Shown here piece by piece: positions 124-5,636 of a DNA stretch of 43,872 nt. The first letter of the stretch is position 1; each line of letters begins with the position of its first letter. The stretch lies in the IMG/VR virus record IMGVR_UViG_3300017732_000017, positions 1 to 43,872 of that record. One strand, given 5' to 3'. The notes beneath the pieces were generated by a model that saw only the letters and a program-made list of their open reading frames with translations, did no database searches and had not been told where the DNA came from. Source of the stretch: a virus. A program made the position numbers and the translations under genes.

Positions 124-144
124 CAAACAACCCAAGGAAACACC

Positions 145-363
145 ATGAACATAACCATAAAGTATGGCATCAGCAATAGCATCACTAAAACAGTAGACGA
201 CGAATCTACTGTTGATGATGTTATCGACAGCAACACCCTTGCCGCTCTCAATGCCCCCGAAGGCATTGCTGTAGTGCGCAACGGAAACACGCTGTCCGAA
301 GACACATCGTTGTATGACGGCGATGTTATCTATCTGGAACAACGCTCTTCTAGCAAGGCGTAG
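145..363 (+). CDS. Ubiquitin-like beta-grasp protein (phage Ubl)
   Basis: A 72-residue protein with the pattern of a beta-grasp Ubl of the MoaD/ThiS/PRTRC-C type: strand MNITIKYG, strand SITKTV, helix at about 21-37, strand GIAVVRNG (40-47), then LYDGDVIYLEQ (57-67), the conserved 'DGD-V-I-x-L' last strand of the fold. A good Shine-Dalgarno (AAGGA) lies 7 bases before the ATG. It is the first gene of a cluster that also encodes E2-like, E1-like and JAB proteins, so it is probably the protein modifier those enzymes activate, conjugate and remove. Oddity: the C-terminus reads SSSKA with no diglycine, so either Ala is the reacting end or the JAB protein trims the tail first. Hairpins flank the gene on both sides, so its dosage may be set apart from the enzymes. 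The fold call is by eye. An unrelated small beta protein is the alternative. Confidence 0.75.
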   Translation: MNITIKYGISNSITKTVDDESTVDDVIDSNTLAALNAPEGIAVVRNGNTLSEDTSLYDGDVIYLEQRSSSKA

Positions 364-451: not shown

Positions 452-1393
452 ATGATTGAAAATACCGAACTAATAATCAAGGGTAATACTCTTGTTCAAC
501 GCAAAACACTAGACTTGCCTCTAGAAAACAGTGAGAAAATCTTCACTGAATTCATTAACCGGCAGCAAAAAAACTCGTACGCACCTTGTTCTACTGACTA
601 TTTCAGTAAAATTTATCCTGAATTTGTAGAAAAGTCTTGGATGTTATCCAAAGACTTCAGTCAAGACTTCACTGCAGTACACAAAGTCAAACACTTCCCC
701 ATCAACCACGTTTACGGCTGGCGTTTGAATGACAGAGAACAAAGCTGCGTAGAAACTAGATCTTATTGGTTTACTTCTAGTGAATTAACACAGTCTCCTA
801 CTTACTCTGTTAATTACATAGCCTCAAACAGCTACGACACCGACACCGAGTTCTTAGCAGATCTAGATAAAAACTCACGAGACAACGTTAAATTTTTTCC
901 TAACAATCAAATCTTCTGGTCAGACCCACGCTTTGACTTGTTTGTAGCTAACTTCTTCCCTGAAAGTCCTCACGTTTACTTCTTTGCGATAGAAGCACAG
1001 ACTATTGACTTTATAAACAGAGAAAACAACAGAGTTATTCAAAGCCCAAGAATTCCTGTATGTCCAGCTTTGCCAAACATATACGACAACTCAAAAGTGT
1101 GTATGGGTTATGACTACGATGAAGCTATCAACGATTACGGCTACATGGACAAGCAGTTGATGATTCTAGATACTATACAAAAAACCTCATCTAATCGCGA
1201 TCTAGACGTAGATGGCACAAAAGCAAACATGACGGTAGACGAAAACAACAAGGCTATCCCAATACACAAAGAGACTATTTATCGAGCAGATAATTACTCT
1301 ACCGTACTAAGCGCAAGCGCGCCTTTCAGAGAAATAACTAACAGCAACATAATACAATTCGCTCAAACCTATATCAACAATGAACTCTTCTAA
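452..1393 (+). CDS. E2-like conjugating protein, PRTRC protein B-like
   Basis: 313 residues. The middle of the protein has the layout I know from PRTRC system protein B and related prokaryotic E2-like proteins: hydrophobic strand VYFFAI (175-180), then PALPNIYDNSKVCMG (205-219), matching the family's 'P.WNVYdDGsVCLG' block. C217 would be the acceptor of the Ubl thioester from the E1-like enzyme. The N-terminal ~150 residues and the C-terminal ~90 are not recognised. The gene follows the hairpin and an A/C-rich leader with no visible Shine-Dalgarno, and overlaps the next gene by 14 bases. It is probably cytoplasmic; no signal peptide or membrane segment is visible. The assignment rests on the Cys block and on the neighbours. 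A structure prediction showing the E2/UBC fold would settle it. Confidence 0.65.
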   Translation: MIENTELIIKGNTLVQRKTLDLPLENSEKIFTEFINRQQKNSYAPCSTDYFSKIYPEFVEKSWMLSKDFSQDFTAVHKVKHFPINHVYGWRLNDREQSCVETRSYWFTSSELTQSPTYSVNYIASNSYDTDTEFLADLDKNSRDNVKFFPNNQIFWSDPRFDLFVANFFPESPHVYFFAIEAQTIDFINRENNRVIQSPRIPVCPALPNIYDNSKVCMGYDYDEAINDYGYMDKQLMILDTIQKTSSNRDLDVDGTKANMTVDENNKAIPIHKETIYRADNYSTVLSASAPFREITNSNIIQFAQTYINNELF

Positions 1394-1859
1394 CACGCAC
1401 GAGCAGTCTTTAAAAAATATAATTGAAGACACTAATCAAGAACAAGTATCCTTTGACTACAAAAGCTCAGGTTATTTCAAGCGTATAAAGCTTTTAAATT
1501 CAAAACAAGAAGATGAAAATCTTCTTATAAATTTCGGAGAATACCAGCTTTTCAGAGCTTGGGTTAATGATCTTGAAATCAACGAAGAAAGAACCCGAAT
1601 AAAGCAAATAGCCAACGACCAAATGCCCATACAAGATCACCAAGTTCTAAGAAATCTTTACTTCGGCACCTACCCTAACTCAACAAAAGCTAAAAACGCT
1701 ATCCGACGTATGATTAAAAAGTACAAAGAGTTGTATTCAGATAAACCTAACAACAACACTAAGTATTTAACAGACCTAATAAAAGGCAAAGAACAATGTC
1801 TTGCTGCCGACTCTGCACAAGCAATCCGACAACAACTATCCAATCTAAATTATGAATAA
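1380..1859 (+). CDS. Unknown protein inside the Ubl cassette
   Basis: 159 residues, strongly charged and Lys/Asn-rich, predicted mostly helical by eye, with no family I recognise. A helix-rich middle (about 85-130) contains a basic stretch RRMIKKYKELY. It has only one cysteine (near the C-terminus) and so is not a RING-type zinc protein. It overlaps the E2-like gene by 14 bases and the E1-like gene by 8, so it is translationally embedded in the cassette. That makes an accessory role (target adaptor, E3-like factor, or the substrate itself) a reasonable guess, but nothing in the sequence shows it. I do not recall an equivalent in PRTRC or Bil operons. Confidence 0.8.
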   Translation: MNSSNTHEQSLKNIIEDTNQEQVSFDYKSSGYFKRIKLLNSKQEDENLLINFGEYQLFRAWVNDLEINEERTRIKQIANDQMPIQDHQVLRNLYFGTYPNSTKAKNAIRRMIKKYKELYSDKPNNNTKYLTDLIKGKEQCLAADSAQAIRQQLSNLNYE

Positions 1860-2637
1860 TAAAAACCACACAATACTTATAGGTGCAGGCGGCGTATCGT
1901 CCTACCTTGTGCCCGCATGGCGCAAAACATTCCCCCATGACAACCTTATTATCATGGACGGAGATCGCTTAGAAAAACGCAACCTTGACCGTCAGCTTTT
2001 CGATTCTAGTGCCATTGGTCAATACAAAGCAACAGCACTAGCAGAAAAATACGGTTGTAAAGCTATCAACGAATACTTTGACAGTACAAGTCTATCGTCC
2101 AACAGCCTAGAACCTAAAGACATCAACTGTGTTCTATGCGCCGTTGACAACCACGTAGCGAGATACGAAACAATTAAATTCAGCCACGATAACAGGTCTT
2201 GGGACATATCAGCAATCATCGGAGCTAATGAATACTGGACAAGCCAAGCATATATATTCAATCCAACAATCCAAGAAATGTACATCGACAACAAACCTTG
2301 GCCTTTGTTCAAGTATCCTGAAATTGCTACCGATAAATCTCACGACCCAACTAATCCAAGCTGCGTAGAACAACAAGAAAGCGACCCTCAGCTTGCTGGC
2401 GTTAATATGATTACCGCTAGCCTTATGATGCAATTAGCTCTGCGACACACTGAGCAATGCTTAATTGGTTCTGATGTATTCAGAGAACGAACCTTTGCAG
2501 ACTTAGCCTACGCACCTACAGAATTCCAAACAACTTTTGGAGCAACCCAAACTCAACAACTAATAGATCATGACAAAATCAAAGCACCCACAATCCAAGA
2601 AGAAAAAACCCGAGAAGATAACTTATTGCTTGCATGA
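1852..2637 (+). CDS. ThiF/E1-like Ubl-activating enzyme
   Basis: 261 residues with the ThiF/MoeB/E1 Rossmann adenylation fold: nucleotide loop GAGGVS (11-16), MDGD acidic pair (35-38), N44 and R47 in NLDRQ, K59, and CAVDN (96-100) near the end of the fold. A NPSC motif (168-171) precedes a long hydrophobic helix (about 183-198), the same arrangement as the PSC block in PRTRC-type ThiF proteins, so C171 is the candidate Ubl thioester cysteine. No pair of CxxC zinc motifs is present, unlike MoeB. It should adenylate the C-terminus of the 72-residue Ubl and pass it to the E2-like protein. The gene overlaps its upstream neighbour by 8 bases and the JAB gene by 68 bases, an unusually long overlap. 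Confidence 0.85.
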   Translation: MNNKNHTILIGAGGVSSYLVPAWRKTFPHDNLIIMDGDRLEKRNLDRQLFDSSAIGQYKATALAEKYGCKAINEYFDSTSLSSNSLEPKDINCVLCAVDNHVARYETIKFSHDNRSWDISAIIGANEYWTSQAYIFNPTIQEMYIDNKPWPLFKYPEIATDKSHDPTNPSCVEQQESDPQLAGVNMITASLMMQLALRHTEQCLIGSDVFRERTFADLAYAPTEFQTTFGATQTQQLIDHDKIKAPTIQEEKTREDNLLLA

Positions 2638-3445
2638 CAACGCAGTATATCAAGAGCACAAAAAACCTCTGTACAGTTGCTGGCGACAAGTAGACATCCC
2701 TGAAGCAGATGAAAACTTTAATGGTTTTACGTGGAACGGCCCCAAGATCCCCTACGATCTTTGGACTTACATTGTATTATTTCACAGATATTCTGTAAAA
2801 AAGCTTAACTCAGAAACCTTAAACTTCTTGTTCTTTGATCCCGATAACAAAAAAGAACCGTGGCAGTGTTGGGTTCCTCCTCAAAAAACTAGCGGCATGT
2901 CCGTAGAAACCGATACAGAACACGACCTATACGACAAAGAACGTAACAAATATCACAACCTGCAATTCGGCACTGTCCACAATCATGTAACCCTGAGTGC
3001 TTTTCAATCAGGCACTGACGAGATGGACGAGATAGAGAAAGAAGGCTTCCACATAACTGTCGGCGAATGCGATGAAGAAATCATAGATATACATGTACGT
3101 GCTGTTATGGAACAAGAACAGTACGATATAAATATTGCAGACATTGTAGAACTTCCCACTTGGATGCAATCTGTGCCAGAAAAATACCAAAAATACTTAA
3201 TTGTAAACAATTTGTTTTCAGTAAGCCTTGATGATTACGATGAAAAATCTGTTGCAGAGTTGTACGACCCTCAACTAACTAAGGTATCAAGAAATGTTGT
3301 GTCCTACCCAAAAAACAGAAAAAACTCTTTCATGCACCAACAAGGGAACCTGTATATTGGAGGAACTGCCGACCACCCGTGGGAAAATGACTTTAACAAC
3401 CTAGACCCTGTAAACCCTCAGTGGCCTAATAAATTTAAGTATTGA
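2570..3445 (+). CDS. JAB/JAMM-family metallo-isopeptidase (PRTRC-A-like)
   Basis: 291 residues. Residues 137-150 hold H137-x-H139, seven residues, S147-x2-D150, the exact spacing of the JAMM zinc motif. This is followed by GFHITVG (159-165), a strand-turn typical of bacterial JAB domains, including PRTRC protein A. E82 (in SETLNFLF) is the candidate catalytic Glu and is followed by the VPPQ..SG block (102-109). The likely role is trimming the Ubl precursor or removing the Ubl from targets. The N-terminus (residues 3-16) is very basic. The last ~70 residues are an unassigned extension. The start lies 68 bases inside the E1-like gene; no other Met occurs before the core, so that start is needed. 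The stop overlaps the next start (TTGA). The His-Asn-His triplet is part of JAMM, not an HNH nuclease. Confidence 0.85.
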   Translation: MTKSKHPQSKKKKPEKITYCLHDNAVYQEHKKPLYSCWRQVDIPEADENFNGFTWNGPKIPYDLWTYIVLFHRYSVKKLNSETLNFLFFDPDNKKEPWQCWVPPQKTSGMSVETDTEHDLYDKERNKYHNLQFGTVHNHVTLSAFQSGTDEMDEIEKEGFHITVGECDEEIIDIHVRAVMEQEQYDINIADIVELPTWMQSVPEKYQKYLIVNNLFSVSLDDYDEKSVAELYDPQLTKVSRNVVSYPKNRKNSFMHQQGNLYIGGTADHPWENDFNNLDPVNPQWPNKFKY

Positions 3446-3822
3446 AAGAATCTCAATTTAAAGCCTTTTTTGTCAAAGCTCTAAGAACTAATGGTTGTTT
3501 CGTTCAAACGATTGAAACGACCACAGGAAGAGGAGTCCCCGATCTTGTCGCTTTGCGCTCCAACCGTACATACTGGATAGAAATAAAAGTCGGATACGGT
3601 AACACCGTAACAATACGGCCAGAACAGTACGCTTGGATGCGCAAGGCCAAGGGTCAAAACGTAGATGTTTACGTTGCTATGCTTGACAAGAAAACTGACG
3701 AGCTCAAAGTCTTCGCTTCTTCAGAGGGAGTTCCTCGCGCAAAAGGATGGATGCTTGAATTTCCAATTTACGTGTTCCCAAAGAAAAATTTAGCCAAACA
3801 AATAACCCAATGGATACAATAA
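3442..3822 (+). CDS. VRR-NUC (PD-(D/E)XK) nuclease
   Basis: 126 residues starting at TTG, which overlaps the previous stop in TTGA. No ATG is near, and the family's N-terminal helix (ESQFKAFFVKAL) begins right after. Motifs: GVPDL (31-35) with D34, the EIK pair E47-x-K49, and RPEQ (59-62), the VRR-NUC signature. Stand-alone VRR-NUC proteins of this size are common in phage replication modules, where they act on branched or flapped DNA; here that role is inferred. The gene sits between the Ubl cassette and the DNA polymerase and overlaps the polymerase start by 13 bases, so the three are translationally coupled. Confidence 0.85.
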   Translation: MKESQFKAFFVKALRTNGCFVQTIETTTGRGVPDLVALRSNRTYWIEIKVGYGNTVTIRPEQYAWMRKAKGQNVDVYVAMLDKKTDELKVFASSEGVPRAKGWMLEFPIYVFPKKNLAKQITQWIQ

Positions 3823-5636
3823 AAGGGCTACAGCTACCCCTGTTCGACATTGAAAGCACTTGGCGACCACCCGCTAAAATACTCAACACCGCTAGCACAA
3901 TAGCAGTAGACTTAGAAACAAGAGATCCTTTCCTAAAAAGGAGAGGGCCCGGGTTTTTGTACGGTCAAGGAGAACCAATAGGAGTAGCCATTGCTACAAA
4001 AGAAGGTAAGATGTATTTACCTTTCAACCACCAAGGCGGAGACAATTTAGACCTATACCTAGTTAAAATGATAACTAAGGATTTTATGTCTAAAGCTGAC
4101 GAAATCGTCATGGCTAATGCCACTTATGATCTAGGTTGGCTGTTAGAGTGGGGCGTACCAATGCCCCGAGGAATTGTAAGAGACGTACAAGTAGCCGAAG
4201 CATTAATTGATGAGGAGCAACGATCTTACAGTTTAAACACGCTTTCTTTAAAGTATCTCAACGTAGAGAAAAACGAAAGTATGCTTAGGCAAGCTGCAGA
4301 AACCTATCGCATAAATCCTAAAAGCGAAATGTGGAAACTTCCTGCTCGCTACGTTGGAGCGTATGCTGAAGATGACGCAGCTCAAACGCTTTTATGCTAC
4401 GAGAAACAAAAACCTCAACTATCTGAGCTAGGCCTTTGGAAAGTATGGGATCTTGAATGCGACATAACCAAGATCTGCTCGAAGATGACTAGAAAAGGAA
4501 TCCGAGTAGACCTAGATGCTGCTTCCCAACTTAACGAAAAGCTTAAAAAAGAAGAAACAGAAATAAAAAACCGCCTACATTTTAACGTAAACTCAGCCAA
4601 CGAGGTTGCAAATTTCTTAGAGAAAACGTTCAAAGAAAAAGTACCTAAAACTCTCAAAGGAAACTATTCAATAACAGATCAATATCTCAACGAACTAGGC
4701 TACAAAGAAGCTAAAGAGATTGTACATTTACGACAACTAACTAGGCTTCGAAAGACCTTCATAGAAGAAGGTGTACTAGAAAAGAGCTACAAAGGACGCA
4801 TTCATGCGGAGTTTAAGCAAACTACGTCTGAAGATGGAGGAACTAGATCTGGCAGGTTTTCTTCTAAAAACCCAAACATGCAACAAGTACCTGCTCGTTC
4901 CGAAATAGGTCAGATAATACGGAAGCTGTACATAGCTGAAGAAGATTCCCTCTGGGCTAAGTGTGACTACAGTAGCCAAGAGCCTAGACTTCAGGTGCAT
5001 TACGGCATAGTTCTAGGATTAAAAGGAGCTAAGGAAGCAAAGAAAGCTTTCGACGAAGGCGTTAAAATCTACACGTTTTTAGAAGACAATACTGGACTGC
5101 CTTACGCCACCTGTAAGATGCTAGTCCTCGGCATTGGTTACGGCATGGGCGTCAACTCTATGGCTGATAAACTCAACATATCAGTCAACGAATGCGAACG
5201 TATTAGACAAACGTTTCAGCAAAAAGTGCCGTACATCCAACAACTTTTCGACAGGTGTCGAGCAAAAGCCCAAAAAGACGGCTTTATTCGCACTGTTCTA
5301 GGACGTCGTTCTAACTTCCCGTGGTGGGAGTCTGGTAACGAACGTGTCAAAGGATACGAAAATGCAAAGAAAAAGCTTGGCAGAAGCATCAGTAGAGCTT
5401 TTACCAATAACGCCCTCAATAGATTGATTCAGGGATCAGCTGCCGATCAAGCTAAACTAGCTATGAAACTTTGCGACGAGCAAGGTTTCGACATACGGCT
5501 TCCTGTCCACGATGAAATCAATGCGATTGTGCAGAACCCGAAACAAGCAACCGAAATAAAAGAGATCATGGAACAAGCCATTAAGTTTGAATTAGACTTT
5601 GTAGCTGACCTAGATCTCGGAACCAGTTGGAAATGA
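3810..5636 (+). CDS. polA: Family A DNA polymerase with 3'-5' exonuclease
   Basis: 608 residues. Exonuclease domain: ExoI D34/E36 (AVDLE), ExoII N103-x3-D107 (NATYD), ExoIII Y185-x3-D189. Polymerase domain: GGTRSGRFSSKNPNMQQVP (template-binding block), motif A D386 in DYSSQE, motif B K436-x3-L440-x3-Y444-G445, motif C HDE (567-569). There is no 5'-nuclease domain, as is usual in phages. L440 sits at the position of E. coli Pol I Phe762 and T7 Tyr526. Leu here is known as a major marine-viral variant. It replicates phage DNA together with the downstream primase and helicases. It starts inside the VRR-NUC gene (13-base overlap) and ends with an ATGA overlap onto the next gene. Confidence 0.97.
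   Translation: MDTIKGLQLPLFDIESTWRPPAKILNTASTIAVDLETRDPFLKRRGPGFLYGQGEPIGVAIATKEGKMYLPFNHQGGDNLDLYLVKMITKDFMSKADEIVMANATYDLGWLLEWGVPMPRGIVRDVQVAEALIDEEQRSYSLNTLSLKYLNVEKNESMLRQAAETYRINPKSEMWKLPARYVGAYAEDDAAQTLLCYEKQKPQLSELGLWKVWDLECDITKICSKMTRKGIRVDLDAASQLNEKLKKEETEIKNRLHFNVNSANEVANFLEKTFKEKVPKTLKGNYSITDQYLNELGYKEAKEIVHLRQLTRLRKTFIEEGVLEKSYKGRIHAEFKQTTSEDGGTRSGRFSSKNPNMQQVPARSEIGQIIRKLYIAEEDSLWAKCDYSSQEPRLQVHYGIVLGLKGAKEAKKAFDEGVKIYTFLEDNTGLPYATCKMLVLGIGYGMGVNSMADKLNISVNECERIRQTFQQKVPYIQQLFDRCRAKAQKDGFIRTVLGRRSNFPWWESGNERVKGYENAKKKLGRSISRAFTNNALNRLIQGSAADQAKLAMKLCDEQGFDIRLPVHDEINAIVQNPKQATEIKEIMEQAIKFELDFVADLDLGTSWK

Follow-up and report, generated by a model that had tools for sequence, protein, structure and literature searches.

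Operon organization

The analysed stretch of phage DNA (43,872 nucleotides; hereafter called the window) carries an operon in which the gene for a ubiquitin-like protein (Ubl) comes first, followed by those for a Prok-E2_D-like E2, the small ORF3, a ThiF-type E1, and a JAB metallopeptidase, all on the plus strand (Table 1). The E1 matches Pfam ThiF (E 9e-11). Its G-x-GG loop and the Arg, Lys, Asp, and Cys residues that mark an E1 adenylation domain are kept in nearly all of the aligned relatives, and by motif matching, Arg47, Lys59, and Asp99 are equivalent to the MoeB ATP-site residues Arg73, Lys86, and Asp130 (PMC12355090). In the JAB protein, Glu82, His137, His139, Ser147, and Asp150 are invariant in an eight-sequence alignment and compose the complete JAMM motif (E, HxH x7 S x2 D), and Lys59 and Trp65 are conserved in the N-terminal region.

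Table 1. Positions of the Ubl operon and its neighbouring features in the window.
Feature	Position	Strand	Description
Ribosome-binding site of the Ubl gene	134..138	+	AAGGA, from the sequence; 6 bases 5′ of the ATG
Ubl gene	145..363	+	72 aa, predicted beta-grasp protein; ATG...TAG ORF, stop TAG 361-363
Ubl tail codons	346..360	+	S68-S69-S70-K71-A72, from the family alignment
E2-like protein	452..1393	+	313 aa, with an invariant Cys217 (codon 1100-1102); distantly related to PRTRC protein B and Pfam Prok-E2_D
ORF3	1380..1859	+	159 aa; related loci carry a small counterpart between E2 and E1
E1/ThiF-family enzyme	1852..2637	+	261 aa; loop GAGGVSS, R47, K59, D99, Cys171 (codon 2362-2364)
JAB/JAMM metallopeptidase	2570..3445	+	291 aa; E82, H137-N-H139, S147, D150; motif 2978-3019
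VRR-NUC nuclease and family-A DNA polymerase	3442..5636	+	replication genes directly 3′ of JAB, likewise in related phages

The second gene is assigned by profile similarity around Cys217, and its product is best described as a predicted E2 with a putative UBC fold. The window protein has no match in Pfam and is not among the 5 of 22 E2 homologues that match Prok-E2_D (best 5e-8). In an hhalign comparison, the window E2 family matched PRTRC protein B with 97% probability, with the invariant Cys217 aligned. The AlphaFold2 model of this protein is poor (pLDDT 63); neither a Foldseek search with the model nor a profile search of the PDB sequences with the E2 family returned a match.

The E1, the E2-like protein, and the JAB occur with the Ubl in most of the loci that extend far enough. 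A VRR-NUC homologue is found in 29 of the 42 close and intermediate loci and a DNA polymerase in 26 of them, usually directly downstream. Since these genes recur beside the Ubl operon, the system is a standing part of the replication module in this marine phage lineage. The replication genes of the window lie on the plus strand, and the structural genes, at 12063-40539, on the minus strand; a search for tRNA genes and Rfam families within the window found none.

Fold and C-terminal end of the Ubl

The 72-aa ORF is predicted to encode a beta-grasp protein with the fold that defines ubiquitin-like proteins. AlphaFold2, run on the family alignment, produced a confident beta-grasp model (mean pLDDT 91), with strands at residues 2-7, 11-16, 41-45, 48-50, and 61-66. 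The tail has no secondary structure, and the confidence is low at the final residues, as expected of a Ubl. Foldseek retrieved ubiquitin (E about 2e-4), SAMP1, and others with this model, and the structural alignments with ubiquitin and SUMO gave VIA Z scores of about 9. Residues 1-71/72 pair with residues 1-76 of ubiquitin and 18-93/94 of SUMO2, and thus the tail is of Ub/SUMO length: the six residues R67-A72 stop where the Gly-Gly of ubiquitin and SUMO stops, and the K-A or K-G position lies about six residues after the last strand, as far as in the Ub/SUMO tail. In Pfam, the closest match is ThiS, which is below threshold (20.4 bits versus a cut-off of 22.5).

The C-terminus reads LEQRSSSKA (DGDVIYLEQRSSSKA), with no Gly past DGD. 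The window Ubl, with its SSSKA end, therefore lacks the C-terminal diglycine or glycine expected of Ubl modifiers. The initial annotation had already pointed out this glycine-free tail, and our reading of the ORF at 145-363 and the ends of the close relatives described below bear it out.

Conservation of the C-terminal tail

We collected relatives by searching IMG/VR with a JAB alignment, which yielded 80 loci; the Ubl tail played no part in this search. The window E1, used as a single query in IMG/VR, retrieved no close relative, whereas the JAB alignment did, and profile searches recovered the Ubl, E2, E1, and JAB together in the related loci. Counting the window, there are 25 close loci with 23 distinct DNA sequences; every one of them ends in S-S-K-A, and their Ubl homologues share 39-49% identity with the window Ubl. 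Each of the four residues is encoded by two or three synonymous codon forms while the amino acids are constant, and the columns about 12-22 residues before the Ubl end mostly hold three to eight amino acids among the same loci. These comparisons exclude S-S-K-A as an accident of a single phage and indicate strong purifying selection on the tail. In the GTDB contigs, one very close system is present in a Sneathiella MAG, and several more are in Verrucomicrobia and other MAG bins, which are possibly phage contigs.

When the deep relatives are included, Gly47 and Lys71 are the only invariant columns of the 28-sequence Ubl alignment, and Gly8, Leu35, and Ala72 are kept at 90% or more. The deep relatives end in NSKA, NSKA-HG, HSKA-S, HSKA-A, NQKA-A, HEKA-LA, NTKA, NTKA-L, and NTKA-NELELVAA; in single Ubls, K-A is followed by zero to two residues and once by eight. 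K-A is the very C-terminus in 24 of the 33 single-Ubl systems, and nearly all of the others add a short, trimmable extension. The lone Gly-type tail among the 33 is CAKG-K. Strict preservation of the ending across dozens of related phages makes it very probable that the phage tag truly works through lysine-alanine.

A freely drifting end was also considered, and the initial annotation had named free variation of the tail among homologues as the observation that would speak against its significance. We rejected it: the alignment shows no such variation, with S-S-K-A constant in the 25 close loci and Lys71 and Ala72 kept in the deep alignment.

Tandem Ubls and the Lys-(Gly/Ala) end

Several relatives encode Ubl domains in tandem, and the junction between the domains always falls right after K-A or K-G (marked here by a slash). 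The joins are MEKA/SDELVT and then NSKA/V in locus L047, SQKA/AVYT and then SQKA/A in L052, and HDKG/ADAVVT and then HDKG/LLG in L053. The four-domain Ubl protein of phage KLEB27-3 contains GVKG/MARTV repeats, that of phage D69 contains GTKG three times, and GTKG/NDI is also among the observed joins. The constant location of the junctions after K-A or K-G argues both for precursor maturation by the JAB at this position and for a window Ubl whose encoded SKA end is mature as it stands.

Poly-Ubl precursors with two to four or more domains, the units of which end in K-G or K-A, were observed in phages at L011 (3031-3780), L005 (382-1173), L191 (a Ubl ORF of 368 aa), L047, L052, and L053. In L085, two separate, neighbouring Ubl genes (3357-3548 and 3622-3807) lie in one operon, and both end in KAGTKG. 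In L149-L178, which are PRTRC-like loci in viral or prophage contigs, many Ubls extend about 60 residues past GTKG, and the JAB would have to remove these extensions.

We then counted the ends of all Ubl domains with an E1 in the same locus. In this HMM-anchored census, 108 of the 109 domain ends are Lys-Gly or Lys-Ala, with many of the rows being close kin and the counts thus not independent; only L055 (GTDG) departs from this. The ends divide into 72 K-G, 36 K-A, and 1 other once the automatic calls for L164 and L055 are corrected by hand. In the PRTRC/phage Ubl superfamily, the place of the "diglycine" is thus taken by Lys-(Gly/Ala), and the window falls within a large Lys-Ala clade. The E1 tree requires no fewer than four switches between Gly and Ala: one for the large Ala clade that includes the window, one each for Pelobacter and phage ME3, and a return to Gly in L045 and L053. 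Ala also arose separately in one plasmid PRTRC system and two phage types. A further Ala case, L215/L221 (VGTKA/SDL), is outside the E1 tree.

The residue at position 15 of the E1, in the GxGGxG loop (window codon 1894-1896), is Val in 27 of the 29 Ala-tail systems and Thr, Ile, or Asn in all 20 Gly-tail systems. In Pelobacter PRTRC (GTKA), it is Val, and its GTKG sisters have Thr, which makes this an independent switch. ME3 and L215/L221 have K-A tails yet carry Thr15. Since position 15 is the best of more than 200 columns, the tree gives only three independent pairs, and these exceptions exist, an adaptation of Val15 to the Ala tail is kept as a lead only; the residue seems mostly to track by descent.

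Relationship to PRTRC systems

The plasmid PRTRC systems, covered in NCBIfam by families of the TIGR03735 type and fitted by the type 6d operon in Iyer et al. 2006 (PMC1779556), resemble the window operon in two ways. First, both combine a Ubl, an E2 (Prok-E2_D / protein B), a ThiF E1, and a JAB (protein A) in one operon, and the E1 and JAB alignments together with the E2 profile comparison place the window proteins in these component families. Second, the Ubl tails share the form x-x-K-G/A at an equal position. Plasmid PRTRC protein C ends in AGTKG, VGTKG, YGRKG, or FGAKG, with one case extended past VGRKG, and that of Pelobacter propionicus pPRO1 ends in AGTKA. The initial annotation had stated that PRTRC-C departs from Gly-Gly, and the K-G at the homologous position agrees with this. 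In an hhalign comparison, the window Ubl and PRTRC protein C matched weakly (4% probability, E 0.009), but end to end and with the tails in register.

The two also differ. PRTRC systems have the plasmid ParB/E/F cassette, whereas the window has phage replication-module genes; moreover, the window differs in the order Ubl-E2-ORF3-E1-JAB, in the tail Ala in place of Gly, and in its more ThiS-like Ubl body. The nearest NCBIfam models are PRTRC ThiF for the E1 (34.5 versus a cut-off of 144.75 bits) and PRTRC protein A for the JAB (22.1 versus 101.8 bits), and PRTRC_C does not match the window. The type 6d traits include a largely helical companion protein and a JAB-N domain (PMC1779556); the candidates for these here would be the small ORF that separates E2 from E1 and the JAB N-terminal region with Lys59 and Trp65. 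The highly conserved C-terminal glycine of type 6d Ubls is Ala in the window clade and Gly in the PRTRC-like sister systems. The sequence comparisons are best read as a distant relationship to plasmid PRTRC (type 6d), with the same component families; the window system is not a formal PRTRC member, because the cut-offs are not reached and the terminal Gly is missing. A search of the open-access literature yielded no publication that brings PRTRC, phage, and ubiquitin-like together, and we know of no function for the PRTRC systems.

The PRTRC-like operons of large phages (Salmonella phage Arash, Vibrio phage D69, Bacillus phage KLEB27-3, and Acinetobacter phage ME3) similarly combine a JAB and an E1 with a Ubl, mostly with E2-like genes nearby. 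Their tails are GTKG, GVKG, or GNKA, with tandem Ubls; PRTRC-like phage Ubls end in TGTKG, TGNKG, AGTKG, and the like, and that of ME3 ends in GNKA-A. They differ from the window in being mostly Gly-terminal, in gene order, and in sequence, with proteins about 17-28% identical to those of the window.

In phage Arash (L003), the annotated CDS gp251c (102-320) is in the wrong frame, and the overlapping frame at 107-307 encodes a PRTRC-C-like Ubl with an RTGTKG end. In ME3 (L004, KU935715), the JAB gene at 748-3858 is split. Its first part stops at VVVMDIH; an interruption of about 660 bases, which holds a tRNA gene, then separates it from a piece that encodes SHVNMSAFFSS. Behind this piece, a group I intron (Rfam RF00028, 81 bits, 1874-2210) lies inside the JAMM active-site motif; the ORFs after the intron may be homing-endonuclease genes, and the remainder of the JAB is at 3208.

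Proposed conjugation cycle

To our knowledge, conjugation via a C-terminal Ala is not known biochemically for any beta-grasp Ubl, and we know of no biochemistry or experiment on any member of the superfamily. The chemistry has a precedent in CBASS. The CBASS cyclases have a C-terminal Gly or Ala in 1,583 sequences; replacing the Gly by Ala retains the thioester and part of the conjugation, while a C-terminal Ser, Val, Arg, or Trp abolishes the E1/E2 conjugation (Jenson et al., PMC10097602). In a Bacillus cereus cyclase, Ala331 was mapped as the residue joined to PspA lysines (PMC11153139). These results indicate that E1-E2-JAB machinery can work chemically with an Ala terminus, whereas it could not with a Ser terminus.

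The window system and CBASS (Cap2 E1-E2, Cap3 JAB; PMC10097602, PMC11153139) are alike in conjugation, predicted for the window, through a C-terminal Gly/Ala that is reversed by a JAB. In CBASS, however, the modifier is a cyclase (CD-NTase) with variable penultimate residues and the E1 and E2 are fused, whereas the window modifier is a predicted beta-grasp protein with an invariant penultimate Lys and the enzymes are all separate; no CD-NTase gene is among the window operon genes. The Bil defence systems and the ThiS/ThiF sulfur carriers have Ubl/E1 chemistry and the beta-grasp fold in common with the window. The similarity to Bil is a weak one in the E1 (BilD E 0.036); PADLOC gave only weak E1 matches.

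We consider it likely that the phage encodes an E1-E2-JAB conjugation system in which the Ubl serves as modifier and works through Lys71-Ala72 at its C-terminus. From the observed genes, protein families, tail conservation, and junction positions, we infer the following chemical steps, target, and biological role. The ThiF-type E1 would adenylate the Ala72 carboxylate and then form a thioester with the Ubl, which would pass to Cys217 of the Prok-E2_D-like E2 and become attached via Ala72 to an amine on the target. Since the operon lies in the replication module, the target is perhaps a replication or host protein, and this location suggests proteins of replication or host takeover. The JAB would cut the bond after K-A and, in the relatives with tandem or extended Ubls, would also mature the precursor there. 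Lys-(Gly/Ala) would thereby take the role of the Gly-Gly of ubiquitin.

Alternative explanations

The initial annotation had left three options for such a tail: activation of the Ala itself, trimming to Ser by the JAB, or a different chemistry. Activated Ala fits best, given the terminal K-A in most single Ubls, the short extensions in the others, and the tandem junctions. Trimming of K-A or more, which would make the encoded end a precursor and leave a mature Ubl ending in Ser, is disfavoured and is the least probable of the readings weighed here. In its favour are the presence of a JAB and the conservation of the serines within the close clade, but such trimming would not explain the invariant Lys and Ala: in the deeper relatives, N, H, T, Q, E, or D stand in for the Ser but K-A or K-G is retained, the tandem junctions fall after K-A or K-G, and Ser is among the termini that abolished conjugation in CBASS (PMC10097602). 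Alternatively, Lys71 could be the reactive group, for example as an acceptor in chain formation, with Ala72 as a mere cap. The Lys is indeed more conserved than the last residue, being present in 108 of the 109 domain ends; nevertheless, an acceptor Lys would not need the last residue to be limited to Gly or Ala across the superfamily and to form the junction, and we regard this role as very improbable.

Two further explanations dispense with conjugation altogether. The Ubl might be a ThiS/MoaD-like sulfur carrier with a thiocarboxylate on Ala72, in line with the ThiF-like E1 and with ThiS as the closest Pfam match. This match is below the cut-off, however, the carrier's Gly-Gly is absent, the operon encodes a JAB and an E2-like protein, and neither a sulfurtransferase nor any other sulfur pathway gene was recognised nearby; a sulfur carrier thus seems quite improbable. 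The SKA end might instead be a recognition tag or degron that is bound non-covalently by the E1, the JAB, or a host protease, a possibility that we judge unlikely. We know of no conjugate, and the Ubl body also has nearly invariant columns, as such a tag would allow. Against it, a catalytic E1 with its Cys, an E2-like protein with an invariant Cys, and a full-motif JAB accompany the Ubl in most of the sufficiently long loci, and a C-terminal degron would not explain K-A or K-G at the internal tandem junctions.

Implications

The Lys-Ala modifier is best read as a variant of the Lys-Gly pattern of PRTRC/type 6d. More broadly, we lean towards a superfamily of phage and plasmid beta-grasp modifiers that uses Lys-(Gly/Ala) for Gly-Gly, in which the window clade would run the entire cycle from adenylation to JAB cleavage on a C-terminal Ala, within a core replication module, and tag replication or host proteins. 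If so, an E1 could activate even a genuine beta-grasp modifier that lacks a terminal glycine. The "diglycine" rule would then ask for a small residue, either Gly or Ala, which in this Ubl superfamily is preceded by an invariant Lys, and dozens of phage and plasmid systems, as yet uncharacterised, would gain a concrete and testable cut-site rule. Trypsin would leave one Ala on the substrate lysine, and diglycine-remnant proteomics would therefore miss the conjugates; the remnant mass would be +71.04 Da (71.037) for Ala, and +57.02 Da for the Gly of the sister systems, which is isobaric with carbamidomethylation. Finally, the ubiquitin-like pathway would belong to the core gene set of the phage replication module, rather than being a host defence gene.
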